A stretch of 40,689 nucleotides of DNA from Parafrankia discariae (GTDB lineage Bacteria; Actinomycetota; Actinomycetes; Frankiales; Frankiaceae), in the NCBI RefSeq assembly GCF_000373365.1, contig NZ_KB891238.1:1-40689 (forward strand), read 5' to 3'. The notes under the pieces are model-generated. The model searched no databases, was not told where the DNA came from, and saw only the letters and a program-made list of their open reading frames with translations. Below, one piece after another: positions 19,639-36,217 of this stretch; position 1 is the first letter of the stretch; the number at the start of each line of letters is the position of its first letter. Both the position numbers and the translations under genes were made by a program.

Positions 19639-21255
19639 ATGAGGATTTCACGGCTGCAGATCACGAATCATCAGCGTGTCACAGATCTCGACATCGAGGT
19701 TCGGCGCCATCTTGTGCTCGTCGGTGCCAATGACATCGGCAAGACAACGATCTTGCGATGTGTGGACTCGGTGCTGCGGGCATCGATGAGTCAGCTACAC
19801 GCATGGTTTGGGGCGGACCATTTCCGAGACCCAGCACGTCCACTGGTGGTCGAAACATCACTAGTCGACATCAAGGGGCAGGACCTGGGAAGATTCGCCG
19901 ACGACATCGAGGTCATCGGCAGCGGGGGTGAGGCGGTGCATCGCCTCACTGTACGATTGACTATCAACCTGGATCCAGAGGACCCTGAGTCGAAGTCGGT
20001 GGTCCGGCATTTCGTGAAGCCGGGTGTGGAGCGGCCAGTCCCTTACCGGGACTTGGAGGCGCTCGGTTGGACATATCTACCCGCCGGCCGCTCCGCCGAC
20101 CACGAGCTAGGATCCGGACGAACCGGGGCGGTACAGGCGCTGCTCGGCGAAGTCGATCTCGGCGACGACGAAGAGGTGCTGCGTACCGCCTTGGTCGACT
20201 ACCAGACGGGCCTGAACGAGGCCAAGTCGCTGGCCGAGCTGCGAAACGATGTCGCGACTGCGTTGACTGCGGTGTATCCGCGGTCTGTCAGCGACGACGC
20301 TGTATTGGTAAAGGCGCGAGATGCCAGTGACACGCTTCTCGGCCACGTGGACATTCATGTCGGCACGCCACGAGGTCAGGTGCGGTTAACTGAGCAGTCG
20401 GATGGCATCCGAGCGTTGACGACGATCGCGCTGCACCGCCTCGCCCGCCGGGCTGCCGGTATTATAGCGGTCGATGAGCCGGAACTACACCTTCACCCCC
20501 GCAGCCAGGCGCGTGTCGGTGCGGTGCTGGCCGCCGGGCCGGGCCAGACTGTAGTAGCGACCCACTCGCCGCAGGTTCTGGCCTCCTTCCTGCCGTCCGA
20601 CGTGGTGGCATTTGCGCCTGGCGGGACCAGCAGGCAGGTCGCCTCTACGGGGCTCGACAGAAACTTGAAGTTCCTGCAACATCATTGGCTGGACTCGGCG
20701 CTGGAACCACTGACGGCCCGTGCCGTGGTGGCCGTCGAGGGCCCCTCGGATCGGACCATGCTTCATGCGGCGGCTCGGGCGCACGGCCTGGATCTGGACC
20801 AGTCTGGTGTCAGCGTTGTCGTGGTTCGTGGCGCAGATAACTTCTCGAACGCGTACCGATTGTTCGGACCAGCCGGCTTCGACGTCGCCTTGCTCACGCT
20901 GGTCGACGAGCAGGAGGCGTCGATAGTCGCGAATGATCTGGGTTGCACCGAGGCGGACCTCGACAGTCGTGGGGTACTGATCTGCCGAGCCGATCTGGAA
21001 GACGAGTACGTGCGCGGGCTCGGCCCCGTGCGCTGTGTCGAGCTACTGGCCAGGTCGGGCCTGTACCAGGAACGGCAGATTCTTGGGGCATGCCATGTAA
21101 CGACCGCCGACACGATCCCTGCCGACGTTCTGGCCAGATGGTGCCGAAAGCAAAAGATTAATACCGCTATGGCTCTTGCCCAGGAAATCACGATGAGCGA
21201 CGCGGAGCAGATTACCGTTCTGGTGGACCTCGTTGCCCGGCTGGCTGCTCTGTGA
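19639..21255 (+). CDS. gajA: OLD-family ATPase/TOPRIM nuclease, Gabija GajA-like
   Basis: A 538-residue class 2 OLD nuclease: an ABC-type ATPase fused to a TOPRIM nuclease. Walker A is GANDIGKTT (29-37), the signature-like LTEQSDGIRAL is 250-260, Walker B with tandem acids is IIAVDEPELHLHP (275-287) and the H-loop is VVATHSPQ. The TOPRIM part begins VVAVEGPSD (Glu367), then LTLVDEQE (Asp423) and DLEDEYVRGLG (452-462). In Gabija, GajA nicks DNA when phage replication lowers nucleotide levels, working in a complex with GajB. ATG 19639 has AGGGA upstream. The helicase start overlaps its stop. The DxD of typical TOPRIM is replaced by DEQE, so the catalytic acids should be checked. Confidence 0.85.
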   Translation: MRISRLQITNHQRVTDLDIEVRRHLVLVGANDIGKTTILRCVDSVLRASMSQLHAWFGADHFRDPARPLVVETSLVDIKGQDLGRFADDIEVIGSGGEAVHRLTVRLTINLDPEDPESKSVVRHFVKPGVERPVPYRDLEALGWTYLPAGRSADHELGSGRTGAVQALLGEVDLGDDEEVLRTALVDYQTGLNEAKSLAELRNDVATALTAVYPRSVSDDAVLVKARDASDTLLGHVDIHVGTPRGQVRLTEQSDGIRALTTIALHRLARRAAGIIAVDEPELHLHPRSQARVGAVLAAGPGQTVVATHSPQVLASFLPSDVVAFAPGGTSRQVASTGLDRNLKFLQHHWLDSALEPLTARAVVAVEGPSDRTMLHAAARAHGLDLDQSGVSVVVVRGADNFSNAYRLFGPAGFDVALLTLVDEQEASIVANDLGCTEADLDSRGVLICRADLEDEYVRGLGPVRCVELLARSGLYQERQILGACHVTTADTIPADVLARWCRKQKINTAMALAQEITMSDAEQITVLVDLVARLAAL

Positions 21256-22973
21256 ACCTGCTGATTCCGACGTCCCGGCAAGCCAACGCCTCCGAAGTTG
21301 ATCAGCTACCCGCAGGCGACGTCCTCCTCCTCTCAGCGCCAGGTTGCGGAAAGACCGAGCGCCTCGCCCGGCACGCGGCGGCGCTGGTCCGTTCTGGTGA
21401 TGTCGCCGACCCACAGAAGATCCTGGCCGTCACATTCAGTATCCGCGCCCGGAGCAATCTGGCCACGCGGATCCGGACCCAGTTGGGTCCGAGGGCCGCC
21501 CGCCGGCACGTCGAGATCGCGACGTTCCACGGATTCGCCCATCGTCTGTTCCGTAACCACGGTCGGGCCGTTGGCGTGGATCCACTCCTCCTCGTGGCTC
21601 CGCAGCGCGGCTGGGTTGAGCAGCTCCGGTCCGAGGTGGCCCGGGAATACCGCGTCCTCAGGAACGACCTCGATTCCATTCTGACAGCTGTCAAGCGCGA
21701 CGTGATCTCCGACGAGGAGATGCGGAAACGACTGGTCCGCAGCGGGTCGCCGGCCGCCGTCGCCTACCAGGAACGCTTGGACGGGGCCAGCCGGATCGAC
21801 TTCGATGACCTCCTCCGGTACGGAACGCGGCTACTCGCAGTGCCGGCGGTTCGCGAGCTGTACCAGGCGCGGTTCGCAACCGTCCTGGTCGACGAGGTTC
21901 AGGACCTGGGCCGTCTGCACTACATCCTGATCGCTGATCTCGGAACCGGACGAACTGTGTTCGCTGGCGACCACGCCCAGGGGATCTACCGGTTCGCCGG
22001 TGCTGAGCCTGACTGGGTGTTCGCCCAGGTCCATGCCCGCAACCCTGCGATCGTGCCCCTAGGCCACTCCCACCGCTCCTCCCCACCAGTGTTGAGAGTC
22101 GTGGGTGCGTTGGCTACCGAGCTGGGTGGCGGCCCGCTCGAGTCCGCGGATCCGGCCCGGTGGGCCGGCCGAGGACACGTCGAGGTACTTCGCTTCCGGA
22201 ACGTCCAATCTGAGGCCGCCGCGGTGGTGCGCCTAGTTCAGGAGTGGCTGGCGCAGGACCCCACGCCATGTGTCGGGGTCATGGCCCGCACCGCCGCCCG
22301 CCGTGCCTACATCGATGACGCGGTACGCGCCGCCTCCATCGCGGCAGAAGTATGGGACGACCCGATCAGCACGGCTCGAGTCGTAGACCTGCTGCACGCC
22401 CACGCATCTGGTGCGATCGCCGCTGCCGACAACGACGCCAGCCGCATCGATGAACTACATCGACGCTGCCAGGCTGCTCTGGATCCTGACGATATCGAGG
22501 CCCGCGACGATGTCACCTCGGCATGCGTGTCCCTACGTGAACGGACCGCCGTGGTGTCGCTTGTCGACGCGCTCGACGGGATCCGCGTCGCAAGCGACCC
22601 GGACGAGCCCACTTCCCCTGGGTTACACCTCCTCAATGGCCATCTCGGCAAGGGTCAACAGTTCACAAAGGTAATCATTGTTGGACTGGAGGAGGATTTT
22701 ATTCCTCACTTCGCCGCCATTAAGAAGAACGATCCTGCCGAGATCCGTGATGAGTTGGCGGTGCTGCACGTTATGGCCTCACGCGCCGAAGAGGAACTTA
22801 TATTTACCGTGACCGAAAACGTGCCCACCCGCAATGGCTATCCTCGACTCCGTCAACCATCTCGTTGGTTCAATTCAATTCTTCAAGCTACTACAGTCGT
22901 GCCGAACGGCACCCAGCGCCCCTCCGTCACGTCGGACGGCCAAGCCAGCACTCTTCAAGATCAACTACGCTAG
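21252..22973 (+). CDS. gajB: UvrD/Rep-like superfamily 1 helicase, Gabija GajB-like
   Basis: A 573-residue partner of the OLD nuclease. Motif I is APGCGKTE (29-36), Ia region ILAVTFSIRARSNL, motif II VLVDEVQDLG (211-220), motif III VFAGDHAQGIYRFAGA, and motif VI region HVMASRAEEEL. The motif order and short length match GajB-type helicases, which lack much of the 1B/2B insertions of UvrD. GTG 21252 lies inside the last codons of the nuclease (4-base GTGA overlap), so the two are translationally coupled. In Gabija the helicase senses DNA ends and stimulates GajA. 'MASRAEEEL' is a drifted form of the usual VALTRA motif. Confidence 0.85.
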   Translation: MNLLIPTSRQANASEVDQLPAGDVLLLSAPGCGKTERLARHAAALVRSGDVADPQKILAVTFSIRARSNLATRIRTQLGPRAARRHVEIATFHGFAHRLFRNHGRAVGVDPLLLVAPQRGWVEQLRSEVAREYRVLRNDLDSILTAVKRDVISDEEMRKRLVRSGSPAAVAYQERLDGASRIDFDDLLRYGTRLLAVPAVRELYQARFATVLVDEVQDLGRLHYILIADLGTGRTVFAGDHAQGIYRFAGAEPDWVFAQVHARNPAIVPLGHSHRSSPPVLRVVGALATELGGGPLESADPARWAGRGHVEVLRFRNVQSEAAAVVRLVQEWLAQDPTPCVGVMARTAARRAYIDDAVRAASIAAEVWDDPISTARVVDLLHAHASGAIAAADNDASRIDELHRRCQAALDPDDIEARDDVTSACVSLRERTAVVSLVDALDGIRVASDPDEPTSPGLHLLNGHLGKGQQFTKVIIVGLEEDFIPHFAAIKKNDPAEIRDELAVLHVMASRAEEELIFTVTENVPTRNGYPRLRQPSRWFNSILQATTVVPNGTQRPSVTSDGQASTLQDQLR

Positions 22974-23017: not shown

Positions 23018-26000
23018 TCACGTTGTCGCGATCCAGCAGGTCAGGTGAATGTCGGATTCTTCGATCTGGGGTAGTGGTTCCGGGGCAGGTTGCTTGGTGA
23101 GGCCGAGCTGGTCGGCTAGTTCGGATAGGCGGTCGACGCGGGCTTTCGGGTGTGCGTCGCTGATCAGGACTTTGCGGATTTCGGTTTGGATGCGAGGGCT
23201 GTAGGGGGCTTCGAGGCGATCGACCAGGTCGTCCTGGTGGTCGAGGTGGGTGCCGTGGCGGCGGACCAGGGCGGCGGCCTCGCGCATGGGCTTGGGGATG
23301 TTGACCTGGTAGTTGGCGGGGTCGGTGTTGCGGGTCCAGGCCTCGTAGATGTGGCGGCGGGCGTGTTCCCAGGCGCCGAAGACGGCCTGCCTCAGCGGTT
23401 CGGGCAGGTCGACGGGCGTGGCCTCGTCGAGGGGGTCTGCGGCGGAGAGGCAGGAGAGGGTGTCGTCGACGATTTCAACGTTGCCGTTCTGGTCGCGCTG
23501 GACGTCGAGCGCGGCGGTGAGGGGGACGTAGCGGAACCAGGGGCGGGGATGGTCGCCGATCCGGGCGCAGAAAATCAAACCTGGCTGGGTCCCACCCGCA
23601 GATCCGCCGCTGCTTCCTACGGCCCCACCACCTGCTGCCTGAGTGCGGATGAAGCCGGTGCCGCTGCCCCAGGGGAGGCCGAGGACGGCGTCGGCGAAGG
23701 TTGGGCTGGCCATGGCCTTGCGGAGGCGGCGGCGGTATTCCTCACCGGAGAGCGAGGATGCGCCGCCCGATTCGAACAGGGTGGCGTCTTCGTGGCGGAG
23801 GCTGTCGATCTCGTCGCGGCCTTCGGTGAGGTTGACCTCGTAGCCCTTGAAGCCGGGGAGGACTTCACCAACGCCGGTCGCCGCGGCGGCCTGCTTGAGC
23901 TTCCGCTGAAGACGTTCCTCCAGGCCGAGAAGCCGCTCGAGTTGCTCGTCGGGAAAGAAGCAGCGCAGGAAGACTTCGGCGTGTTCGGAACCGATGCGGT
24001 CGATGCGGCCGTGGCGCTGGACGAGGCGCATCGGGTTCCAGGGCAGGTCGTAGTTGATGATGTGTCGGGCCTGCTGGAGGTTGACGCCCTCGGCGAGGAC
24101 ATCGGTGGCGACAATCAGGTCGTAGAGGTCGGGCTCGACACCGGTCCCGGCTGTGCGAGGCGCGAAGCCGGTGATGACGCTGGCACGGCCGACTCGGTCG
24201 GGGCCGGCGGCTGTGGCGACCCGGCCGCGGTAGGCAGCGAGGCGAGCATCCGTGGCGATCGCGGCGGTGAGCCGGTCGTGGACGAGCGTGACAGTGTCGG
24301 AGTAGTAGGAGAAGATCAGGACCTTGCGCCTGTCGCGGGTGTTCTGTTCGCCGATGCCCTGCGCCGCCGCCTCGGCGGCGATCGTGGCGAGCTGTTCGAC
24401 GAGCACGTCAATCTTCGGGTCGATGCCTGCCTGGTAGGGGACGTCAGCACCGGGCTCGGTCGCGTGTGCAGCGACGTCCTGATGAAAGGCGGCCAGCAGC
24501 GCCAGGTCGGCCTCGACGGCAGCGGTCAGCGCGGCCACGTCGTAGAGCGTGGCGTCGGCGACGCGGTCGGCCGCTTCCTCGCTGAGCGACTCCAGAAACT
24601 CGTCGATGTCATCGGTGTCCGAGACCGCCCATTCGCGCAGCGCCTCGCCGGTCATGACCTTGCCCTGGTCGAGTGCGTGCAGGAAGAACTTGTGGCTCTC
24701 GATCATCTTGTCGACGGTCCGTCCGAAGGCGTAGGCCGACGACTCGAACCGTTTGAGCAATGCGGAGCGAAGCAGGCCGGCGTTCTGCTGCTCGTACTGC
24801 TCCTCCGTCGCGTCACCAAGGCGGAATCGCGACGGGACGTAGCGGGCCAGGGTGAGGACCTTGCCCGGGTCGTCGAGGTAGACCGCATGCGGTTCACCCT
24901 CGTCGTCGGGGAGGTGGGCACCTAGCGCGGTTGCCAGCCGGTCGAACATCCCCGGCAGGGCCTCGTCGAGGTTGTAGTCGACGCGACGCACCCGCGGAGT
25001 CGGGAAGGCGATCTGTCGTTCGACGCCGCGGATCCGCACGGTGTCGCCGACGTAGTGGTGGCGGACGAAGCGGCGGGTCCGGCGGACCGCGACCTTGTCG
25101 AGCACGTCGAACAGGTGCTCCGGTGACAGGTCGTCCGGGTTCATGCGCATCGCCCGGTCGAAGTAGGCCTTCAACGAAGGCACGCCGCTGTCGGCGAACG
25201 TCGCGTCGTTCGTGACGAAGTACGAGATCAGGTTGTAGAGGTCGTACAGGCTGTTGTTGACCGGTGTCGCCGTCAGCAGCACCAGCCGTTTGGGCACTTT
25301 TCCCGTCAGCAGCAGCCGCATCGCCTCCGCGCGCTGGGTCCCGAGGCTACGCAGCGCGTGTGCCTCGTCGACGATGACCAACGCGTAGGCGTCCGGGTCC
25401 TGCAGGGCCGCGCCCTGCTGGCCGGCGGCCGGCATGCCGCGGGTGAGCTCCTCGTAGGAGACGATGTCGGCCGGGAGGTTCGTCTCCCGCAGGAACGGTT
25501 TCCAGGTCGAGTCCCGCAGCGTCGCCGGCGCGACGACCAGGGCCTTTTGCCGGTTGAGGATCACCGCTTCGTGGAGCAGTTCGCCAGCGATGTACGTCTT
25601 CCCGAGACCGACCTCATCGGCAATGATCACGCCTTGGAGGTGGTCGAGGATACGCTGTGCCCGCCACACCCCGTCCGCCTGGAAGTCCGTCAGCCCCAGA
25701 TTCGACCGGCGTGGATCGGACTGCTCGGCGGCCACGTCCACGCCATAGAGCTCGTGGAGCATCCGTAGGAACACGTCCCATGGCCGGTGCGGCTCGAACC
25801 GCGACTCGTAGATCGCCGCCAGGTCGAACGGCGCTGACGCCGCCCACGCCTCCTCGAACCATTCCCGCACCGCCACGACGGTCTCCGGCTGGTACTGGCC
25901 GAGGTTGAGCTCCTTGTTCAGCGCCAGCCCGGCATAGGTGAAGTTGCTCGACCCGGCGATCACGCCGGCATACGGGCCCTCGACGATGAACGCCTTGCCA

Positions 26001-26449
26001 TGCAGGAACCCGGCCTCGTAGCGGCGGACCTCGACGTTTCCCGCGCGCAGCCAGCTGACCAGCCGGCGGGCCTGAGCGTCCGCCTCCATCGTGAAGCCGA
26101 GCAGGTCACGGTCCTGCGACAGCCGACGCAGATGCCCTTCCATCGCCCGGCGCATCCGCTGTTGCTCACCCCGACGACCCGTCCGAGTCCCGAGGGGTCG
26201 CACCGTGGGGCGGTCCTGACCTGGCTCAGCGCCCAGCAGAAGGCGTACCGGCCCGAACTGTTCCAGTTCGTCCGCCAGCAGGCCGAACCCGCCCGGGTTG
26301 AAGTAGGCCGACGCGATAGACACGCCGGGCACCTGGACGAGGTGCTGCCGCATCCCGCCAAGGAGCGTGTTGATCGCATCGACGACCCGCTCCGTGGCGC
26401 CAGGCCGGTTAGTTGCGAAGGTGGGCTGAAAACTTCCCAGCGTGGTCAC
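23018..26449 (-). CDS. PLD-SNF2 helicase fusion (restriction-like)
   Basis: A 1143-residue protein. The N-terminal phospholipase D-like domain has one HKD-type motif (His150-x-Lys152 in FLHGKAFIVEG, then GVIAGSSNFTYAG 163-174). The rest is an SNF2-class helicase: IIADEVGLGKT (275-285), VIVDEAHALR (358-367), LVLLTATPVNN and the C-lobe QRHGRIDRIG. GTG 26449 overlaps the stop of the upstream methylase (GTGA), and GGAAGG precedes it, so the two are coupled. Stand-alone pairs of this kind resemble parts of DISARM (drmC PLD, drmD SNF2 helicase, drmMI methylase), but DrmA and DrmB are absent here. A restriction role with the methylase is inferred. It converges on the Gabija-like operon with only 44 bases between stops. 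Confidence 0.88.
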   Translation of the reverse strand: MTTLGSFQPTFATNRPGATERVVDAINTLLGGMRQHLVQVPGVSIASAYFNPGGFGLLADELEQFGPVRLLLGAEPGQDRPTVRPLGTRTGRRGEQQRMRRAMEGHLRRLSQDRDLLGFTMEADAQARRLVSWLRAGNVEVRRYEAGFLHGKAFIVEGPYAGVIAGSSNFTYAGLALNKELNLGQYQPETVVAVREWFEEAWAASAPFDLAAIYESRFEPHRPWDVFLRMLHELYGVDVAAEQSDPRRSNLGLTDFQADGVWRAQRILDHLQGVIIADEVGLGKTYIAGELLHEAVILNRQKALVVAPATLRDSTWKPFLRETNLPADIVSYEELTRGMPAAGQQGAALQDPDAYALVIVDEAHALRSLGTQRAEAMRLLLTGKVPKRLVLLTATPVNNSLYDLYNLISYFVTNDATFADSGVPSLKAYFDRAMRMNPDDLSPEHLFDVLDKVAVRRTRRFVRHHYVGDTVRIRGVERQIAFPTPRVRRVDYNLDEALPGMFDRLATALGAHLPDDEGEPHAVYLDDPGKVLTLARYVPSRFRLGDATEEQYEQQNAGLLRSALLKRFESSAYAFGRTVDKMIESHKFFLHALDQGKVMTGEALREWAVSDTDDIDEFLESLSEEAADRVADATLYDVAALTAAVEADLALLAAFHQDVAAHATEPGADVPYQAGIDPKIDVLVEQLATIAAEAAAQGIGEQNTRDRRKVLIFSYYSDTVTLVHDRLTAAIATDARLAAYRGRVATAAGPDRVGRASVITGFAPRTAGTGVEPDLYDLIVATDVLAEGVNLQQARHIINYDLPWNPMRLVQRHGRIDRIGSEHAEVFLRCFFPDEQLERLLGLEERLQRKLKQAAAATGVGEVLPGFKGYEVNLTEGRDEIDSLRHEDATLFESGGASSLSGEEYRRRLRKAMASPTFADAVLGLPWGSGTGFIRTQAAGGGAVGSSGGSAGGTQPGLIFCARIGDHPRPWFRYVPLTAALDVQRDQNGNVEIVDDTLSCLSAADPLDEATPVDLPEPLRQAVFGAWEHARRHIYEAWTRNTDPANYQVNIPKPMREAAALVRRHGTHLDHQDDLVDRLEAPYSPRIQTEIRKVLISDAHPKARVDRLSELADQLGLTKQPAPEPLPQIEESDIHLTCWIATT

Positions 26450-29400
26450 GTGGCCTTCCTCTCAGCCCAGGAGTCGAAGTGGTGGAGCGTCGCGGCGAGG
26501 GCGTCCACGTGGCCCCAACCCCGGTGGAACGTCTCGAAGATGTGCTCAACGGCCGCCCGGCCGAGGCCGTAGAGCAGCGCGACAACCGCGTCTAGTTCGG
26601 CGATGAGGTCGGCCTTTTCGCTGGCCGTACGTACGGACCCGACTAGTACACCGACCTCCCTAGCCCAGGCGGCGTAGCGGTGATCCACCGCCGCGAGCCG
26701 ACCCGCTATCTCGACGGCGCGGCGGCGCAACGGATCGTCGGCGGCGGGCCTCGGGATCGGCAGCGACGACATGATCCCCGCGGTGAAGTGCAACTCGACG
26801 TAGCGACGGGAGTACCAGTCCAGGATCCGGCTGGACAGGACACCCAGCAGGTAAGCCTCATCGGCCGCGGTCCCGGCACGGCGGAGGAGGTACGGGGCCG
26901 AGTGAACGGTGGTGGTCCCACCGGGCACGAGCGCGACGATTGCCGTCCGAGAGTCCACGGCTCGGGCGGTGTCCCGGAAGACTATGCGCGGGTGTTTGGC
27001 CGGCAGAGTCTCGGGGTCCGCGGCCCAGGCGGTGGGCATCCCGAACATGGCGCTATCGGACTTCCTGACCTGCTTCCGGCGCCGTGGTTGCAAGTAGGCA
27101 TAGACGTCGGTGGACTTCGCATACGCGTACGGCAGACCGAAGTAGGGATCCCACAGGTGGAACGACCGCACGGTCAGCACTGGCATGTCACCGCGCGGGT
27201 GGTCCAGGTCGAAGTCGAACAGCTCCTTGTTGCCGGTCGAGTGAAGCTCGCGGAGCGGCACGAAGTGCCAGTCGCCCGGAGTGTCGAGCCGTGGGTGGGA
27301 GCGCAGCGTGAGGAAGACATCGAGGCTGGCCGGCGTCGGCAGCACTGGGAACGCGGCGTCCTCGGACCAGGACGCGAAGGCACCGGCCTCGATGACATGC
27401 CCGGTCCGGTGAGCAGCACCGTCGAACTCGGTCAGCGAGAAGAATGGGCCACGCAGCTCCACGGTACGAGGATGGGCTCGGCCCTTTACCAGCGTCGTAA
27501 GCCCGATTGTGTACTGCGGGTGCACCTCGTCGAATACCCACCGGCGGCTGTTGACCAGCATCGTGACGGTCGCAAAAGCGCCGTTCTCAAGGACTGTGTG
27601 CCTGAATTTGGTGCCACCTTTGCCGCCGAGGATCGTACGCGGCAGGACGACGCCGACCCGTCCGCCGGGCCGCAGTACCTGCCAGAACCGCCAAGCGAAG
27701 GCAAGTGACAGTTCGGTGTCGGTCGCGGCCCGCAACCCGGGGAACGGCCCCTTTGCTAGCAGATCCTTCAGGTCCTGCACGGCCGTGACCTCGGTCTCGT
27801 ACTCGGCCCGGAGATCCGGCCGCTCGCGCCGGTACTTGGCGATCGCGGCGTCTCGCTGCTTCTGCGGCATCGAAGCGAGGCCGGGGAACCGAAGGCCCCA
27901 CCACTGGTCCTGCTCGACCTTGACCTTCTCCCACGGCGGGTTGCCGATCAGCACGTCGAACCCCGGCCGCTCCCGCAGGAACACCTCCGGGAAGCGCAGC
28001 GGGAAATGCGCGACCCCGAGCCTCGCTACCGCGTCGCGGACCTGGTCGGTGTGGCCCATCTCGATCGCCTGCTCCGGCGTTACCAGGGACACTCCAATTC
28101 CCAGCCGGACTGCGATCATCGTGTCGAACAGAGCCTGGGCGTCGGCCGCCGCCTCCAGCGCCGCGGTGTAAGCGAGCGCGGCCTCTTGGACCTCCTTCTT
28201 GGTGGCCTCCAATGTCCGTGCGACCCGCGCCAGCTGCTTGCTTGCCTCACCTAGCGTCTCCCGGATCGCGTCCTCATAGAAACTTCTGACTCCCACCCCC
28301 TCGGCGCTCGGGTCGAGCGTGGTGACCACTTCGTCGATCGTGCCGATGCCCGTGAGGCTGTTGCCAACAATCAGCCCGTGGTCGAGCGACGACATCGGCA
28401 GTCCGGGAACGAAGGTGTGGATCCAGACGGCCAGCCTGGCGAGCTCGACTGCCATCAGGTTCAAGTCCAGGCCGTAGATGCAACGCCTGGCGATCTGCCG
28501 CCGTAGCAATGACGACGTCTCAACTTCGACCCCCTCGCCCGAGGTTCCCAGCGCGTCACGGGCTGCCTGCGCCAACCGCGCAAGCTCATCTCCAACCGCG
28601 GCGATCGGTCTTTCGCCGAGGAAGGCAGTGAACCGCGTTTCGATCCGGTCGATGGCCGCGATCAGGAAATGGCCCGATCCCATCGCCAGGTCCGCGACCC
28701 GGAAGTCGAAGAAACTCTCGCCGGCCGCCGCGTCGTCGCCGACGTCCAGGAGCGTCCTGACTCGGTGGAGGTGCTCCTTGATCGCAGGTTCGAGGGCGGT
28801 GTCTAGCAGATGCTCGACTGCGAACGACTTGGTGAAGTAGGAACCCGTGGCCTTGCGTTTTCCCGAACGGTTGTGGGAGTAGACCTCGCCGACCTTGACC
28901 TTTATGAGATCCCGTTCACCGGCTGGGACATAGCTTCCCTCGCTGTTGATCGTGAGCGGCGACGACGCGATCGACAGCGATGACTCAAGCAAACCCTCGT
29001 AGAGGGTACCGAACTCGCGGACAGACAGGGACCGGAAGTCAACCGGGCCTTGCGTACCGTCCGGTCCGGCATCGACGAGTAGGGCACGTAGGACGGGGCC
29101 GAACTCGGCGTCGGTCAGCTGCGTCCTGCGCAGCGCGGCACCGGACGGGCTGGTACGCGGATCGTGGGTGAACAGACCGCCGTTGTACGCCGGGACGTCC
29201 CAGCCGGTGTTGCCGCTGTCGACGGCTTTCCAGACGGCCTGCATGTCGTCCCAGAGCGAGGTCGCCTCGCGGTCGAAGACCAGCTTGGGCTCGTCGGCGA
29301 ACATCCTCGCGAACGTCTTGAGAGCGTGCCGGTCGTAGCTACGGTTCCGGCTGTACGGAAGCAGCGCCCGGTCCTCGGCGTATGCGACGAACAGCAGCCG

Positions 29401-30615
29401 GAACAGGACCATCAGGGTGCGGTGGTAGGCCTCCTGAAGGTCAGCCTCGCTGGTTGCGCGCATCTGCCGGGCGATCGCGACGGCGAGGCCGGGCACGACC
29501 TCCGTGTAGACCCGCTCGCGTAGGCGACTACCGAGATCAGCGGCGAAGTTCGCTGAGTCGCGGAGGATCTCGATGACGGAGCCCTCGGGAGCGAGCGCTG
29601 TCGGCGAGAACAGCAGGTACAGGAAGGCGGCATGCTCGGCAGAAAGCACGTCCAGATCGAGCTCGGTGAAGGTCTCACCCTGACTCTTGCGTCCGACGCC
29701 GATGGTCGGGTTGACCGGGTGCAGCCGGATCTGGCTGCCACGCAGCACGATGACCCAGGGCAGGTTCTCCCGTGCAGCCACCGAGATCGCGTGTGACACC
29801 GGTGAGACCGCGCCGAATCGCAGCGACGGCCGGTCGAACGTCTCCCCAGCTTCAAGAAGCACCGCGATCGCCCGCGACGTCCCCTGGTGCGTTAACAGCG
29901 TCGCGGTGGAACCGCGCTCTGTGGTGCCGTAGCCCAACGCGCGGATCAGCGTCATACCCCGCAGGCCGAGCAGCGGCCGGGCCGCCTGACCAGCCTCAGC
30001 CCACGCCTTGCCCGCCGGGACACCATTGCGGAGTTGGTGCTCTGCAAACAGGCCACGGTTGTCCAGCCCTGAAATTCCCTGCCCGTTACTGATCGCGGCC
30101 AGCAGCCGCTCGAGCTTGCGCTGGCCGTCGTGCCGGTTGGGCTCCCGCAGCGCTGTCGCACACACCCGGTCGAGTTGGCCAGGGTCCAGTGACATGAGCG
30201 GGTTCTCGACGATCCCGCAGGTGGCCGCCTTCGTCGCGGTGCCCTCATCGTAGAGCGCAACCAGTAGGACCGGTGACGCCCGGCTGCCCTGCCGCAGCTT
30301 CCACAGCAGGCGCAGGTCTGGAATCCTCGGCGGACCCGCAGGGCTGACCGCGACCGCTACCTCAAGCGCCGCGTCACCGTTTCCGAACAGGAACCGCTTG
30401 GTGACGAGCTCGCGCGGTGCGCCGGCCGGCGCGGCCCACTCCCGCTCCTCGGCATCGGCGTCTTCCAGGAACCGTTCCACCGCGTCTGCGAGCACGCCCC
30501 GCGCCCCATCTCTCTGAGGCGGGATCGCCTGTCGCGCCCACCAGGCGCCGCTCCCCCGACCAGCCCCACCCGCGTCAATAGCGGAGGCAAGCTCGCGCCG
30601 ACAGCAGGATCTCAA
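26446..30615 (-). CDS. Eco57I-type adenine DNA methylase, large (PglX/DrmMI-like size)
   Basis: A 1389-residue N6-adenine methyltransferase. The SAM motif is VADLAMGSGHFLIAAIDRIE and the catalytic motif IV is FDVLIGNPPWEK (NPPW). Around them are the DLNLMAVELARLAVWIHTF and GLIVGNSLTG strings of the Eco57I/PglX group. A long N-terminal part (about 600 residues, with FRLLFVAYAEDRALLPY) and a C-terminal target-recognition region (LLRRAGTAADEAYLLGVLSSRILDW) complete it. The listed start is TTG with no ribosome site; GTG at 30495 (VLADAVERFL) is an alternative. It overlaps the PLD-SNF2 gene by four bases. It should methylate host DNA at a specific site so the helicase partner attacks unmodified DNA. 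No separate endonuclease is seen. Confidence 0.9.
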   Translation of the reverse strand: MRSCCRRELASAIDAGGAGRGSGAWWARQAIPPQRDGARGVLADAVERFLEDADAEEREWAAPAGAPRELVTKRFLFGNGDAALEVAVAVSPAGPPRIPDLRLLWKLRQGSRASPVLLVALYDEGTATKAATCGIVENPLMSLDPGQLDRVCATALREPNRHDGQRKLERLLAAISNGQGISGLDNRGLFAEHQLRNGVPAGKAWAEAGQAARPLLGLRGMTLIRALGYGTTERGSTATLLTHQGTSRAIAVLLEAGETFDRPSLRFGAVSPVSHAISVAARENLPWVIVLRGSQIRLHPVNPTIGVGRKSQGETFTELDLDVLSAEHAAFLYLLFSPTALAPEGSVIEILRDSANFAADLGSRLRERVYTEVVPGLAVAIARQMRATSEADLQEAYHRTLMVLFRLLFVAYAEDRALLPYSRNRSYDRHALKTFARMFADEPKLVFDREATSLWDDMQAVWKAVDSGNTGWDVPAYNGGLFTHDPRTSPSGAALRRTQLTDAEFGPVLRALLVDAGPDGTQGPVDFRSLSVREFGTLYEGLLESSLSIASSPLTINSEGSYVPAGERDLIKVKVGEVYSHNRSGKRKATGSYFTKSFAVEHLLDTALEPAIKEHLHRVRTLLDVGDDAAAGESFFDFRVADLAMGSGHFLIAAIDRIETRFTAFLGERPIAAVGDELARLAQAARDALGTSGEGVEVETSSLLRRQIARRCIYGLDLNLMAVELARLAVWIHTFVPGLPMSSLDHGLIVGNSLTGIGTIDEVVTTLDPSAEGVGVRSFYEDAIRETLGEASKQLARVARTLEATKKEVQEAALAYTAALEAAADAQALFDTMIAVRLGIGVSLVTPEQAIEMGHTDQVRDAVARLGVAHFPLRFPEVFLRERPGFDVLIGNPPWEKVKVEQDQWWGLRFPGLASMPQKQRDAAIAKYRRERPDLRAEYETEVTAVQDLKDLLAKGPFPGLRAATDTELSLAFAWRFWQVLRPGGRVGVVLPRTILGGKGGTKFRHTVLENGAFATVTMLVNSRRWVFDEVHPQYTIGLTTLVKGRAHPRTVELRGPFFSLTEFDGAAHRTGHVIEAGAFASWSEDAAFPVLPTPASLDVFLTLRSHPRLDTPGDWHFVPLRELHSTGNKELFDFDLDHPRGDMPVLTVRSFHLWDPYFGLPYAYAKSTDVYAYLQPRRRKQVRKSDSAMFGMPTAWAADPETLPAKHPRIVFRDTARAVDSRTAIVALVPGGTTTVHSAPYLLRRAGTAADEAYLLGVLSSRILDWYSRRYVELHFTAGIMSSLPIPRPAADDPLRRRAVEIAGRLAAVDHRYAAWAREVGVLVGSVRTASEKADLIAELDAVVALLYGLGRAAVEHIFETFHRGWGHVDALAATLHHFDSWAERKAT

Positions 30616-30872: not shown

Positions 30873-31436
30873 GTGGTGCTGCGGGATGCTGATGTCCGAA
30901 GAGTCCTTCTGGGTGGTCTCGCTCCTCACCTCGACGCGGACACCCTCGTGGTCGACGAGCTCGACTTGTGCGGACTGACCCGGGTAGATGTCGCGGTCAT
31001 CAACGGCCATCTGTCTGGCTTCGAGATCAAGGGCTCCACGGACACACTGCGTCGACTGCCCGGCCAGGTCGCCGTCTACTCCCAAGTGCTCGACTTCGCT
31101 GAGCTGGTCGTGGCCGAGAACCACTACGAGCGCGCCCTGGATCTCCTTCCGGCCTGGTGGGGCGTCCGCATCGCCTCCGGAATCGAGCAAGTACGTCTCG
31201 ACAGCGCGCGTCCACCTCAACCGAACGACACGGTCGATCCGGGAGCGCTCGTACAGCTGCTGTGGCGGGACGAGGCTCTCGCCGAGCTCGCGGTGCGCGG
31301 CCTGGATCGCGGGGTCCGGTCCAAGCCACGGTGGATCATCTGGGAGCGTCTCGCCGCCGAGGTCCCTCTCGAGGAGCTGAAGACCGCGGTGCGCACCCGG
31401 CTCAAGGGCCGAACAGGCTGGCGAGCTGCTCGCTGA
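30873..31436 (+). CDS. sce7726-family protein, PD-(D/E)XK-like
   Basis: A 187-residue member of the sce7726 family. The N-terminus VLRDADVRRVLLGGL is the family's 'RDxDVR' opening. The core VDELDLCGLTRVDVAVINGH followed by LSGFEIKGSTDTLRRLPGQ carries an Asp ... Glu-x-Lys pattern like PD-(D/E)XK nucleases, then a Gln and an 'AVYSQVLDFAELVV' strand. GTG 30873 has AGGGGTGG upstream. Its 3' end overlaps by 35 bases the 3' end of a convergent beta-family (sce7725-like) gene; in other bacteria sce7725 and sce7726 are neighbours. A role in defence is suspected from such context only. Confidence 0.85.
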   Translation: MVLRDADVRRVLLGGLAPHLDADTLVVDELDLCGLTRVDVAVINGHLSGFEIKGSTDTLRRLPGQVAVYSQVLDFAELVVAENHYERALDLLPAWWGVRIASGIEQVRLDSARPPQPNDTVDPGALVQLLWRDEALAELAVRGLDRGVRSKPRWIIWERLAAEVPLEELKTAVRTRLKGRTGWRAAR

Positions 31437-32490
31437 CCGTCGTCAGGTGGTGCAGGGTTCCGTACCGGCGCCAGGTCTTCCCGTTCCCGCCCTTCGCGCC
31501 CTTGGCTACCCCCTCGATCCAAAGGTCGGCAGGACAATGCTCCCGCCCGGCGAAGTGGGGCGAGGTATGAAGCAGGTCAGCCACCGGGTTCATCGCGGCC
31601 CCGCCTATGCCCTCTCTGTTACGACCCCGGAACAACGCGGCACTCCGGCCGATGATCCAATGACCTTCACTCGTGTAGCGCAGTGAGGCCTTCTGGGGAG
31701 CCCATGGCGGAGGTGGGTCGGCGTCCGCATCCGGGTTGGCAACGGCATAGTCGCCGAACGCTGGAGGCAGGTCAGGCAAGCTCGCCACGAGTTCGCGGTA
31801 GGCAGCCCACTCCGTCCGTTCGATGAGAGAGAGGCCGTCGGGTGCCCCAGACAGGCTCGCGGGGAAGGCGGTACCCGCAACCGTGGCACTGCGCCAGCTG
31901 TGGGGAAACGGAAGGTCAAGCAGCTCGGACCTGAACGCAGCCGATTGTTGGCCAGGGCCACCCTGGGGGTGTGTGCCCAGGTCCAAGACGAGGTCGACCT
32001 CGCCAGGTGGGACCCGCAGAAGCGCCAAGAGCTCCGTCAGTCTGGCCCCGCCGTCGATGGAGGGCCACTCGTCGGGGGGCAGTCGGAGGCAGACGCCCAG
32101 CCCGTGTCGGTGGTGCAGCTCGGCGACGGCCGCGTTGTAGAGACCGGGTCGTTTCAGGGACGTCGTGGGGATGGGGGCAAGGCCGAACTGCGCGAGGTCG
32201 TCGACAAAGGCCTCAAGTGGGTGGCTGCCGGCACCCGACTGTTCGTCCTGGAAGTACCGGAGATCGATGAACGCCGGCCCGGTCCAACTGTCAGCGATGC
32301 CCTGGACCAGGCCATCGAGGTGCTTGCCGACAGTCGTCGTCGGTTCCTTCGTCTTGAACTCTGTCGGCACCGGCGGGGCCACCAGCATGGGGAACATCCC
32401 CGAGCGTGTCTGGGAGGACACCTCCTGGAGAGCTGCCCGTTCGCCACTTCTTGCCAGCAGGATCGGCACATAGCGCAGGCCACCAGTCAC
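31402..32490 (-). CDS. Beta-family (T4 beta protein / sce7725-like) protein
   Basis: A 362-residue protein of the beta family (PF14350), first described from a T4 phage protein and common beside sce7726. The opening LRYVPILLARSGERAALQEV is the family signature. A repeating beta-alpha pattern (FIDLRYFQ, LGVCLRLPPDEW, EVDLVLDLGTHP) suggests a TIM-barrel-like fold. The C-terminus WRRYGTLHHLTTVSEQL is also typical. GTG 32490 was preferred to GTG 32508 because GGGAG lies seven bases before it. Biochemical function is unknown. Pairing with the nuclease-like sce7726 suggests a two-part system. Confidence 0.82.
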   Translation of the reverse strand: MTGGLRYVPILLARSGERAALQEVSSQTRSGMFPMLVAPPVPTEFKTKEPTTTVGKHLDGLVQGIADSWTGPAFIDLRYFQDEQSGAGSHPLEAFVDDLAQFGLAPIPTTSLKRPGLYNAAVAELHHRHGLGVCLRLPPDEWPSIDGGARLTELLALLRVPPGEVDLVLDLGTHPQGGPGQQSAAFRSELLDLPFPHSWRSATVAGTAFPASLSGAPDGLSLIERTEWAAYRELVASLPDLPPAFGDYAVANPDADADPPPPWAPQKASLRYTSEGHWIIGRSAALFRGRNREGIGGAAMNPVADLLHTSPHFAGREHCPADLWIEGVAKGAKGGNGKTWRRYGTLHHLTTVSEQLASLFGP

Positions 32491-32812
32491 CAGGAGATCT
32501 CCCGTCACGTTCAGGGATCAGGATCACTCAACCGGTAACACCATCTCATACCTTCAGCGACAGGACTGCCACTTTATGGCACTTGGGTAGCAGTTTGCTC
32601 TACGACACGGGCCAGCATGTTACTGCTGGTGGGCGAGTCTTCCCCACGCTCGCCGGGGTGATCCGGCACCCTACCGGGCCCACCCGAATAACCTGGAGTC
32701 TTCTCGCGCTCGCGGAGGGTAATCCAAAGCCGGAGAGGCAGGATCTCAGAACGGCGCCTGGAGACACCGGACGACTGGTAATAGCGTCTTTCGTGGTCGG
32801 CCTGGTGCGGAA
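32491..32812. other. Intergenic region between the beta gene and the CHAT module
   Basis: About 320 bases with no recognisable gene. It should carry the promoter of the beta gene on the minus strand and perhaps that of the CHAT operon on the plus strand. I see no clear hexamers or strong hairpin. Confidence 0.35.
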
Positions 32813-32908
32813 GGTAGGATGATCGTGCCGTAGGGGCACATGTGGACTGGGGGGTCCGATGCCGGCGACCTATTAGCTCGCCTGGTGGAACCTGGAGAAC
32901 CTCTTCGA
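32813..32908 (+). repeat. Direct repeat copy 1: truncated 5' end of the EEP nuclease gene
   Basis: These 96 bases match 37834-37929 at 90 positions without gaps. In the intact copy they comprise the leader and first 16 codons of the endonuclease/exonuclease/phosphatase gene. Here codon 6 is TAG instead of TAC and similarity stops abruptly after CTCTTCGA. This is therefore a dead partial copy just before the CHAT gene. The conserved leader TGGACTGGGGGGTCCGATG may still provide a ribosome site or transcript start. Confidence 0.85.
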
Positions 32909-33007
32909 GAGAAACGTATGGTGACACCGCAGTACGTATCGCGTCCTCCGCGTGAGCGGGGGCGTGTCGTCGATGGTGATGAGTACGTTGACGCCGGGGG
33001 CCGGGGA

Positions 33008-36000
33008 ATGCGGATGCTGAAACGGAGGCGCCTGCTCGCGAAGGTGCGGGCACGGGTGAAACAGTTCGACGGTGACCGGAATCCGGCCACGGTACTGGCT
33101 GCCGAGGCGGTCGCCGAGGTAACCGCCCTGCTGGAGTCGGTTCCGGACCCGGCCGCCGACCTTCAAGTCGCCCACGCGGCCGGGTGGCTGTACTGGTTCC
33201 GTTACCTCGTCCTCGACCGCAGCGACGACGACTACGAGCAGGATCTTGCCGCGGCGTTGGCTTTGTTCGTTCCGGTGTATCAGGCACATCCGGGCTCCGT
33301 GCCCCACCGGGTCCGCACCCGCTTCGACAGAGGTCCGCTCACCTCTGCCGGCGACTCGGAGGCGTTGGCAAGCCGTGGTATCAGGCTTCTGGAGGAAACG
33401 CTGCGGTCCGGTGACCGTGCCGTATTGGACACATCCATCGGGCTGCTCCGGCAGGCAGTGGCCGCCACCGCGCCCGACCACCCCAACGTGGCCGCGATGC
33501 TGTCCAGCCTCAGTAGCGCGTTAGTGACCCGGTTCGACAGCACCGAAGACCAGGCGGACCTGGACGCAGCGGTCGACGCCGGCCGGCAGGCAGCGGCCGG
33601 CGCTCCTGCCGGCCACCCCGACCGGGCTGCAATGGTGTGGAACCTCAGCATCGTTCTGCAGACCCGGTTCGAGCGACTTGGGGACCAGGCGGACCTCGAC
33701 GAAGCGGTCGACACCAGCCGGCAGGCAGTGGCCGCCACCCCACCCGACGACCCCGACCGAGCTGCGAGAGTGTCGCACCTCAGTAGCGTCCTGCGGACCC
33801 GGTTCGAGTTCTCCGGGGACCAAGCGGACCTCGACGCAGCGGTCGACACCAGCTGGCAGGCAGTGGCCGCTACCTCATCCGACGACCCCGACCGAGCTGC
33901 GAGAGTGTCGCACCTCAGCATCGTTCTGCAGACCCGGTTCGAGCGACTTGGGGACCAGGCGGACCTCGACGAAGCGGTCGACACCAGCCGGCAGGCAGTG
34001 GCCGCCACCCCACCCGACGACCCCGACCGGCCCGGGGTGGTGTCGAACCTCGGTTACGTCCTGCGGACCCGGTTCGAGCGATTTGAAAACCAGGCGGACC
34101 TCGACGAGGCGGTCGACACCAGCCGGCAGGCAGTGGCCGCCGCCCCACCCGACCACCCTGGCCGGGCCGCGATGCTCTCCAACCTCAGCGCCGCCTTGGG
34201 GACCCAGTACCGCCGCTCTGGGGAGCAGGCGGACCTGGACGCAGCGGTCGACACCGGCCGGCAGGCAGTGGCCGCCACACCATCCGACCACGCCGGCCTC
34301 GTCCTAAACCTCTCCAACCTCGGTCTCGCCCTGCGTATCCGGTTCGAGCGACTTGAGGAGCAGGCGGACCTCGACGAAGCTGTCGACACCGGCCGGCAGG
34401 CGGTGGCCGCCACCCCACCCGACCATGCCAGTCTCGCTACTACCCTCTCTAACCTCGGTAACGCCCTTCAGCTTCGGTTCGAGCGCTTCGGAGAGCAGGC
34501 GGACCTCGACGAAGCTGTCGACACCGGCCGGGAGGCGGCATCGGTGGAGGCGGCGTCGCCTCGGGTACGGGCAACGGCCGCACGCAACTGGGGGCGCGTC
34601 GCCGCGGCGAACGGGCGGTGGCTGGAGGCCGTGGACGGTTTCACGGCGGCAATCACGCTGCTGGACCGGGTCGCGCCGCGCAGCCTCGCCCGCGGCGACC
34701 AGGAACATCTACTCGACGATCTAGGCGGTCTGGGGTCGGATGCGGCGGCGTGCTGTGTGCACGCCGGGCTGACACACCGTGCGGTGGAACTGTTCGAACA
34801 GGGCCGCGGGGTACTGCTGGGCCAGGCGTTGGACAGCCGCACCGACCTGAGCGCACTCACCGAGCTGCACCCCGATCTGGCCGGTCGGTTCAGCGCCCGA
34901 CGCGACGAACTCGACAGCGCTGATGACCGGAGCCGACCGCTGACAATGACAGGTACCGACGGGCCCGCCCTCCCTACTCGGGCCGACCTGGCCCGCGAGA
35001 CGGCGCGGCGGCGGCGGGCCGCCACAGCGTTCAACCGGGCAGTCGCCGAGATCCGGAAGTTGCCCGGGTTCAACGGTTTCCTCCAGCCGCCTCAGGCACG
35101 TGAGCTCACAGCGGCGGCCAGCGGCGGCCCGGTTGTCATCGTCAATGTCTCCCGTTTCGGCTCGCACGCCCTGATCCTGACCAGTGGCGGTGTTCTGGAA
35201 CCGGTGCCGCTCACCGCGCTCACACCGGAGGTGGTGTACGAGCGGGTACTCGGTTTCCTTCTCGCGCTCGACGAGGTGTCCTCACCGTTTGCTCGTGCCA
35301 GCAGCCGGCTCGCGGCGGAACAGTGGATCACGGACACGTTGGGCTGGCTGTGGGACGCGGTCGCCAGTCCGGTCTTCGGCCGTCTGGGGATCACTGCCCC
35401 GCCCGAGAAGGATGAGCCGTGGCCGCGAGTGTGGTGGTGTGTGTCGGGGTTGCTGTCGTTCCTGCCGTTGCACGCCGCCGGCCGTCATGACACCCGCTAC
35501 GACGCCGCCCCCGCCACCGTGATCGACCGAGTGGTGTCCTCCTACACCCCGACCGTCCGGGCGTTGAGCCACGCTCGACGCGACAACCCACACAGCACCA
35601 GCGGCCGTGATGATGAGGGCATGCCTGCCGGGGGTCGCGTGGTGGCGGTGGCGATGCCCCACACCCCCGGCGAGTCCGACCTACCAGGGGCGGCAGCCGA
35701 GGTCGCCGGGTTGCAGCGGCGTCTTCCCGGCCAGGTCAGCGTGCTGACGGGGCCTGCGGCCACCCGGGGGGCGGTGCTTGCGGCGTTGCCGGGTGCGCGG
35801 TGGGCGCATTTCGCCTGCCACGGCGCGGCCAACCCGGCCGACCCGTCCGCCAGCCATCTCCTTCTGGCTGACCATCAGCAGCGGACATTAACCGTGGTCG
35901 ACGTCGCCCGGCTACATCTGGACGGTGCCGAGCTGGCATTCCTGTCCGCCTGCGAAACAGCCCGCCCAGGTGGCCGGCTGACCGACGAGGCGATCCACCT

Positions 36001-36217
36001 GACCTCCGCGTTCCAACTCGCCGGCTACCGGCACGTGATCGGTACGCTGTGGCCAATCGGCGATGTGCACGCGGTCGCGATCGCCGCCGACATCTACACC
36101 ACCCTCACCAATAGCGGGGATGTGGCCGGTGCGGTCCACACCGCGACCCGCCGGCTGCGCAATCGGTGGACGGACACCCCGTCAGTATGGGCATCGCACA
36201 TCCACGCCGGCGCCTGA
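33008..36217 (+). CDS. TPR-like repeat protein with C-terminal CHAT protease
   Basis: A 1069-residue soluble protein. After a helical N-terminus (KRRRLLAKVRARVKQFDGD) come eight 45-residue TPR-like repeats and a degenerate ninth (residues about 138-530), then a linker and a CHAT caspase-like domain. The catalytic dyad is intact: His938 in WAHFACHGAAN and Cys982 in AFLSACETARPGG. QLAGYRHVIGTLWPI is also typical. CHAT proteases act in bacterial conflict systems, for example by cleaving gasdermins or, in Craspase, Csx30. The repeats probably sense a partner. ATG 33008 was chosen because family members begin close to the KRRRLL segment; ATG 32918 and GTG 32840 also keep the frame open. Two further genes follow as an operon. 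Confidence 0.88.
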   Translation: MRMLKRRRLLAKVRARVKQFDGDRNPATVLAAEAVAEVTALLESVPDPAADLQVAHAAGWLYWFRYLVLDRSDDDYEQDLAAALALFVPVYQAHPGSVPHRVRTRFDRGPLTSAGDSEALASRGIRLLEETLRSGDRAVLDTSIGLLRQAVAATAPDHPNVAAMLSSLSSALVTRFDSTEDQADLDAAVDAGRQAAAGAPAGHPDRAAMVWNLSIVLQTRFERLGDQADLDEAVDTSRQAVAATPPDDPDRAARVSHLSSVLRTRFEFSGDQADLDAAVDTSWQAVAATSSDDPDRAARVSHLSIVLQTRFERLGDQADLDEAVDTSRQAVAATPPDDPDRPGVVSNLGYVLRTRFERFENQADLDEAVDTSRQAVAAAPPDHPGRAAMLSNLSAALGTQYRRSGEQADLDAAVDTGRQAVAATPSDHAGLVLNLSNLGLALRIRFERLEEQADLDEAVDTGRQAVAATPPDHASLATTLSNLGNALQLRFERFGEQADLDEAVDTGREAASVEAASPRVRATAARNWGRVAAANGRWLEAVDGFTAAITLLDRVAPRSLARGDQEHLLDDLGGLGSDAAACCVHAGLTHRAVELFEQGRGVLLGQALDSRTDLSALTELHPDLAGRFSARRDELDSADDRSRPLTMTGTDGPALPTRADLARETARRRRAATAFNRAVAEIRKLPGFNGFLQPPQARELTAAASGGPVVIVNVSRFGSHALILTSGGVLEPVPLTALTPEVVYERVLGFLLALDEVSSPFARASSRLAAEQWITDTLGWLWDAVASPVFGRLGITAPPEKDEPWPRVWWCVSGLLSFLPLHAAGRHDTRYDAAPATVIDRVVSSYTPTVRALSHARRDNPHSTSGRDDEGMPAGGRVVAVAMPHTPGESDLPGAAAEVAGLQRRLPGQVSVLTGPAATRGAVLAALPGARWAHFACHGAANPADPSASHLLLADHQQRTLTVVDVARLHLDGAELAFLSACETARPGGRLTDEAIHLTSAFQLAGYRHVIGTLWPIGDVHAVAIAADIYTTLTNSGDVAGAVHTATRRLRNRWTDTPSVWASHIHAGA
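33419..34498 (+). repeat. Eight tandem 135-bp coding repeats
   Basis: Units begin at 33419, 33554, 33689, 33824, 33959, 34094, 34229 and 34364, each exactly 135 bp (45 codons). A degenerate ninth unit starts at 34499. The consensus unit begins ADLDEAVDTSRQAVAATPPD. Units three and five share a 118-base identical block (33642-33759 and 33912-34029), a sign of recent duplication or conversion. Confidence 0.9.

Follow-up and report, generated by a model that had tools for sequence, protein, structure and literature searches.

A methylase and a PLD-SNF2 fusion protein of Parafrankia discariae as a probable two-gene restriction-modification system

Here we analyze two adjacent genes in a stretch of 40,689 nucleotides from Parafrankia discariae (contig NZ_KB891238.1, called the window below), one coding for an adenine methylase and the other for a protein in which a PLD nuclease is fused to an SNF2 motor. 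In our judgement the pair is rather likely to be a self-sufficient ATP-dependent restriction-modification system, which is organised like the mod-res genes of Type III but built from other parts, and which probably labels the DNA of the cell itself and destroys incoming DNA that lacks the label. The evidence, as it can be read from the sequences, consists of the domains and their intact motifs, the pairing of the genes, the lack of a recurrent third gene, the exchange of recognition regions, and the lack of a conserved nuclease motif in the methylase.

The two open reading frames (ORFs) were confirmed in the window, both on the minus strand:

23018–26449, minus strand: PLD nuclease–SNF2 motor fusion, 1143 residues (ORF; Pfam; AlphaFold2 pLDDT 83)
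26446–30495, minus strand: N6-adenine methyltransferase with C-terminal specificity region (ORF; Pfam Eco57I; PADLOC PDLC03620, 847 bits; start as in relatives)
26446–26449, minus strand: GTGA stop/start overlap of the methylase and helicase genes (sequence; a 4-base overlap is annotated in three of the six plasmid relatives)

The Pfam matches, all above the curated cut-offs, are Eco57I on the methylase and PLDc_2, SNF2-rel_dom and Helicase_C on the helicase protein. A first-pass annotation of the sequence had reported a four-base overlap, adenine methylase, PLD and SNF2 domains with the PLD fused to the helicase, and an NPPW motif and a His150; all of these are found here, and the two motifs are invariant among the relatives compared below. 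The methylase ORF opens at a TTG at 30615, which adds some 40–45 residues. Since this extension is absent from the six plasmid relatives, a GTG at 30495 or 30480 is the likelier start. Promoter and terminator scans of the locus gave no more matches than in shuffled sequences.

Relatives were sorted by helicase identity. Group 1 (roughly at least 38%) comprises 59 loci, namely the window, 6 plasmid, 49 genome-contig and 3 viral loci; group 2 covers helicases of about 31–36% identity, and group 3 is a broader PLD-SNF2 set of 23 loci at 25–30%. The genome-contig scan with the helicase alignment gave at least 79 loci, the genome-contig counts being counts among the matches listed, and 77 of the 80 loci from the helicase scan of a viral collection were dropped as generic helicase-core matches. 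A tblastn search of 72,556 plasmids yielded six records covering 80% or more of the helicase, from Rhodococcus erythropolis, Mycobacterium gallinarum, Euzebya pacifica, Paenarthrobacter aurescens, Halalkalicoccus and Halorubrum lacusprofundi, and in all six a methylase homologue adjoins the helicase gene, upstream and on the same strand. The pair is distributed over actinobacteria, other bacterial phyla and haloarchaea.

The same order, methylase upstream on the same strand, is found in 51 of the 52 group-1 loci that have 1.5 kb or more of DNA ahead of the helicase, which is beyond chance; the one exception (L071) has a truncated helicase. Five group-1 loci have no upstream room, and a looser count that includes short-room loci with a methylase match gives 53 of 54. 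Group 2 has the methylase upstream in nine of nine cases. Searching the viral contigs from the methylase side gave three matches of at least 41% identity, on the same three contigs as the helicase scan, while among eight distant viral-contig methylases (25–30%) a helicase match was present within the stretch of DNA covered in one (L213) and in none of the other seven. When ORFs were clustered over group 1 and the 23 loci of group 3, no third family recurred in more than five of the 59 group-1 loci; the methylase and helicase ORFs merged in one large component, which could mask a third homologous gene. Because the pairing is conserved and no third family recurs, the two genes constitute a two-gene unit and do not look like a remnant. 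The independent two-gene restriction system that had been put forward at first pass is supported. Close to the host, relatives of the pair are rare: outside the host, a methylase search of 58 genomes gave only partial matches of 25–41% identity (one of 62% over 40 residues), and a helicase search at E 1e-60 was positive in one of 296 genomes, the host itself (two candidates scored per genome).

In the PLD-SNF2 protein, two parts can be delineated:

25829–26419, minus strand: single PLD nuclease domain, residues 11–207, with H150-x-K152, S167, N169 and E180 (PLDc_2; invariance 34/34; model)
23870–25702, minus strand: SNF2-family ATPase core, residues 250–860, with GLGKT, DEAH, TATP and QRHGRIDR (Pfam; conserved motifs; VIA-align Z)

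The AlphaFold2 model (pLDDT 83, pTM 0.79) has a helicase core with a VIA-align Z of about 19 to SNF2 remodellers. H150, K152, S167, N169, N178 and E180 are kept in every one of the 34 helicases compared, which span all three groups. The motif is H-x-K-x4-E and not the canonical HKD, and the residue at the "D" place varies. SauUSI (7clg) was recovered from the PLD-SNF2 protein by both a sequence profile and Foldseek. According to PMC7913695, SauUSI has an HxKx4E PLD fused to an SF2 motor, dimerises through its PLD domains and translocates in an ATP-driven manner. By analogy, the PLD domain studied here would cut as a dimer. The earlier proposal of a single HKD motif acting as a dimerising nuclease is supported by one PLD half-site per chain and by the SauUSI dimer, with the correction that the motif is not a canonical HKD. 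The library matches of the helicase, PADLOC C3a139 "HKD+Snf2" (153 bits) and NCBIfam NF042964 "phospholipD_antiphage" (152 bits, far below its cut-off of 1100), are, like PDLC03620 for the methylase, the best available but only labels, and the name C3a139 was not found in the literature searched.

The methylase contains the following motifs and regions:

28663–28692, minus strand: S-adenosylmethionine-binding motif I, DLAMGSGHFL, residues 642–651 (9 of 10 residues invariant in 7/7)
27931–27942, minus strand: catalytic motif IV, NPPW, residues 892–895 (invariant in 7/7 and in 28/28 rows)
29716–29958, minus strand: PD-(D/E)XK-like order of strands, in which no catalytic residues are conserved, residues ~220–300 (AlphaFold2 secondary structure; relatives' sequences)
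26476–27558, minus strand: swappable target-recognition/C-terminal module, residues ~1020–1380 (identity decoupled from helicase; L043/L044 cassette swap)

An AlphaFold2 model of residues 46–1245 (pLDDT 85, pTM 0.81) resembles CamA (VIA-align Z 25.6), BrxX (24.6), LlaGI (22.1) and M.TaqI (19.9), in a comparison that is limited to the folds listed by VIA-align and barely covers model residues 1–312. A phmmer search of the methylase against the PDB gave no match. In the PD-(D/E)XK-like stretch, the strand expected to bear (D/E)xK reads RAIAVLLEAGE, and (D/E)xK is missing from this stretch in 22 of 23 close methylase relatives; the sole exception (L038) has DRK in the turn ahead of the strand, not in the strand. 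Before model residue 543, the methylase relatives have no lysine conserved at the 90% level. This region is probably structural.

We now consider the C-terminal module. Over 33 intact pairs (26 of the 59 group-1 loci, with a methylase below 1250 or a helicase below 1050 residues, were left out), the Spearman correlation with helicase identity is 0.87 for the methylase N-terminus and 0.71 for its core, but 0.15 for residues 1020–1205 and 0.25 for residues 1206–1380; these values were attained by 0, 0, 5 and 1 of 200 permutations, respectively. The window and Nonomuraea share 72% identity in the helicase and 24% in methylase residues 1020–1205. Two Microbacterium loci (L043 and L044) have a DNA identity of 91% over 2546 bp of the methylase gene and 90% over 3428 bp of the helicase gene, with no blastn match across the remaining C-terminal part of the methylase; the swap starts nearer NPPW than the residue-1020 boundary of the window. 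In these sequences, which are the key evidence here, the C-terminal cassette of the methylase is exchanged while the helicase stays, and the C-terminus would be what supplies the specificity. As the recognition region is exchanged and the helicase kept in L043/L044, recognition of the site by the nuclease protein itself is not required. The protein tolerates such exchange, which would be expected if its target were set by the methylase. Pfam finds no recognition domain on the helicase chain. In Type I and Type III enzymes, the nuclease takes its target from the methylase side.

Specificity may in some relatives also be switched. Six group-1 loci (L025, L029, L031, L035, L066, L084), four titled Acidimicrobiia or Acidimicrobiaceae and two being untyped metagenome-assembled genomes, carry 20 homopolymer or dinucleotide tracts, for example G21, C15, (TC)28 and C51. 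Fifteen lie within the methylase, three at the L066 contig end just before the first match, and two within about 125 bp upstream of the L084 methylase. Of the other 53 group-1 loci, two have a tract, L041 inside the methylase and L018 outside it, and the window has no homopolymer of 7 or longer. In several tract-bearing loci the recognition modules are separate or tandem ORFs. The tracts resemble those of phase-variable specificity. We have also observed 65-nt repeats in the methylase region of L025, L035 and L066.

The mechanism that we propose is as follows. The methylase would modify adenine at a site picked by its C-terminal recognition region and so protect this motif. The PLD-SNF2 protein would dock on the methylase, its ATPase would fire at an unmethylated site, the SNF2 double-strand-DNA motor would translocate, and cleavage would take place once two PLD half-sites pair. 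We infer complex formation, translocation and cutting because of the precedents of SauUSI and CglI; cleavage by a dimer, an N6-methyladenine product and restriction of phages and plasmids would equally be expected of such a system.

The closest organisational parallel is Type III Mod-Res, in which a methylase with its own recognition domain is encoded first and a helicase-nuclease second, with an ATP motor. The pair is likewise a two-gene operon in that order with an ATP motor, but its methylase is Eco57I/TaqI-like with a C-terminal recognition region, its motor is of the SNF2 type and its nuclease an N-terminal PLD. Type III Mod belongs to the N6_N4_Mtase (beta) family, which is not among the Pfam matches of the methylase. 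SauUSI, a Type IV enzyme of PLD, SF2 ATPase and SRA, has the same HxKx4E PLD N-terminal to an SF2 motor, but reads methylated DNA via its own recognition domain, whereas here a methylase gene accompanies the PLD-SNF2 gene. CglI and NgoAVII (R2H2) also restrict DNA in an ATP-dependent manner with a PLD nuclease and an SF2 motor, CglI having one nuclease site per complex; in them, however, the PLD is joined to a B3 recognition domain and the ATPase forms a subunit of its own (PMC7913695). PLD-SF2 restriction components are already known, from SauUSI, CglI, Type-2 BREX-related (BR) systems and Pbe. No description of such a two-gene class was found in the literature searched, subscription papers and REBASE being outside the search.

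The first-pass annotation had interpreted the pair as a reduced DISARM-like system. Class 1 DISARM (DrmMI, DrmD, DrmC, DrmA, DrmB) does combine an adenine methylase, an SNF2 helicase and a PLD nuclease, but in separate genes with a DrmA/DrmB core, and its helicase and methylase fall in other clades. An SNF2-core tree built from 63 proteins separates the PLD-SNF2 proteins as a whole (52 rows) from five DrmD and five HmaA with support 99/99; group 1, and groups 1 and 2 together, each have 100/99, and the sister of the window helicase is that of Nonomuraea solani (100/98). This tree has flagged long branches, includes 16 of the 59 group-1 members after thinning, and is without verified Type-2 BR, DpdE, BrxHII, ArmA or PbeA helicases or the NCBIfam "phospholipD_antiphage" protein. 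In the methylase tree (group 1 thinned to 17 of 59), groups 1 and 2 stand apart from two DrmMI taken beside DrmD (92/89, not starred). Against the DrmD model the helicase reaches 151 bits (cut-off 610), and against DrmMI the methylase reaches 187 bits, compared to 1272–1822 for the DrmMI genes of five DrmD-bearing genomes.

The reference DISARM operon was taken from a DrmD-bearing genome, its DrmMI, DrmA and DrmB being confirmed with PADLOC (DrmA 978 bits). Neither the verified DrmA nor the verified DrmB matched the window (E 1e-3) or any of the 58 other group-1 loci (E 1e-10), and in a control the verified DrmA matched a second DISARM locus (L221) at 50%. DrmA and DrmB, which had already been noted as missing, are therefore absent family-wide rather than lost here. 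The host genome has one MZB/DUF1998 match, on another contig (C184), and none on the contig of the window, which bears also on the YprA-like helicase of ARMADA (there was no ARMADA YprA control sequence); the control match in a DISARM-bearing genome (G138, C52:10341-10649) falls within the verified DrmB. At E 1e-100 the host genome has no DrmD and no HmaA match, and PADLOC never gives a DISARM gene as the best match for any of the eight window ORFs that were scanned. A reduced DISARM is thus rejected, the helicase being outside DrmD, the methylase outside DrmMI, and the verified DrmA and DrmB without a match. The SNF2-core tree likewise does not place the helicase firmly within DISARM or Hma, as loss of genes from one of these named systems would have it. 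Hma/Type-1 BR is characterised by the HmaA helicase and DUF499, neither of which was found in the host genome (HmaA at E 1e-100), and the helicase is in a separate clade.

Two side observations concern DISARM annotation. The PADLOC model PDLC02572, labelled "DrmA", has the DrmD gene as its best match in five control genomes, while the verified DrmA matches other models. The label looks wrong, and because its best matches are DrmD genes, this model is no test of DrmA. In the G138 DISARM operon, a kinase-like ORF (PD-T4-6 type, 314 bits; L222:1173-2825, minus strand) lies directly beyond DrmB.

Other explanations of the pair have to be weighed. It is unlikely, but deserves consideration, that it acts as a BREX/DISARM-like two-gene exclusion system, in which methylation marks self and PLD-SNF2 attacks phage DNA without reading the sites of the methylase. 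The methylase model is near BrxX, the next-best helicase matches include DrmD models, and DISARM can restrict phages that lack its methylation sites, its PLD protein DrmC seemingly being non-essential (PMC9142583). Against this stand the missing DrmA/DrmB matches in the window and the missing DUF499 in the genome, the position of the helicase outside DrmD, and the invariance of the PLD residues. That the methylase is instead a classical single-chain Type IIG enzyme cutting alone, with the PLD-SNF2 gene as an accessory, is improbable in our view. It would agree with the best PADLOC model, PDLC03620 "REase_MTase_IIG", which matches over nearly the full length. However, (D/E)xK and a conserved lysine are missing as described, and the close methylases found from the methylase side, on six plasmids and three viral contigs, all have the helicase. 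The Type IIG label, which implies an active nuclease in the methylase chain, fits poorly because no nuclease motif is conserved there; the sequence pattern shows no such nuclease, the N-terminal fold being barely covered structurally.

We assign a very small probability to the pair being a branch of Type-2 BR, or of another HKD-SNF2 system such as Pbe, from which the remaining genes were lost. In Type-2 BR helicases HKD and Swi2/Snf2 come in the same order, and both systems combine an N6-methylase with an HKD-Swi2/Snf2 effector (here with E at the D place), and the helicase tree includes no verified Type-2 BR or Pbe member. On the other hand, BR systems have a DUF499 ATPase, in Type-2 also DUF3780, and methylases with DUF1156 (PMC12839542). 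DUF499 is absent from the host genome, with a positive control in T. maritima; Pfam at E 0.001 gives only Eco57I and N6_Mtase on the methylase and no DUF1156; and no third gene recurs across the 59 loci. The DUF3780 and DpdE searches gave no match in any genome with the controls silent too, and are thus uninformative. Abortive infection, with PLD-SNF2 degrading host DNA upon disturbed methylation or a phage inhibitor on the methylase, seems most improbable: the presence of the pair on plasmids would also fit an addiction role, but nothing specific supports it.

Some points also weigh against a self-sufficient restriction-modification system. As discussed for DISARM, the helicase could act as an effector blind to the sites of its methylase, and the cassette swap is also compatible with a methylase whose sole role is to mark self DNA. 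The gap between the last methylase match and the helicase, at most 100 bp in 38 of 53 loci, is larger in the other 15 (101–1000 bp in nine, above 1 kb in six), some with intervening ORFs.

Group 3 differs in arrangement. Here the PLD-SNF2 genes (L082, L085-L100, L203, L204) are mostly followed by a different large methylase, in reverse order: a large NPP[YWF] ORF is downstream in 14 of the 23 loci and upstream in three, and five of these methylases that were scanned match other "IIG" models. PLD-SNF2 genes of this type are also found on a Rhodococcus ruber and a Pelobacter plasmid.

The surroundings of the pair look like a defence island, and the adjacent Gabija pair speaks in favour of the reading as a restriction-modification system. 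In the 7.9 Mb host genome, the pair shares its contig (the window) with a Gabija pair at 19639–22973 on the plus strand (GajA PDLC00075, 460 bits; GajB PDLC00121, 405 bits; 4-base overlap), which is convergent with the PLD-SNF2 gene and has to its left a tyrosine-recombinase (phage integrase) ORF of 215 residues (16401–17048, plus). On the other side, an sce7726-family gene (30873–31436, plus) and a Beta-protein (PF14350) gene (31402–32508, minus) are convergent with a 35-base overlap, and match cll and PD-Lambda-2_C in PADLOC; elsewhere such genes lie in one direction. A TPR-CHAT protease-like protein of 1125 residues (32840–36217, plus), beside the defence genes, is a possible defence effector.

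Beyond the single locus, we see about an even chance that such pairs form a separate, widespread ATP-dependent class filed as "Type IIG", made up of a methylase-specificity protein and a PLD-SNF2 restriction protein. Specificity would then change by C-terminal cassette swaps while the nuclease stays constant, and some relatives would in addition use phase-variable tracts and tandem recognition modules. If this is true, a large methylase family would no longer count among the single-chain Type IIG enzymes but belong to an ATP-driven class of two proteins, and the idea that methylase/PLD-SNF2 pairs are DISARM remnants would be corrected. The natural swaps of the recognition region make specificity directly testable, and the compact pair on plasmids is suited to heterologous tests and matters for the transformation of actinomycetes and haloarchaea.

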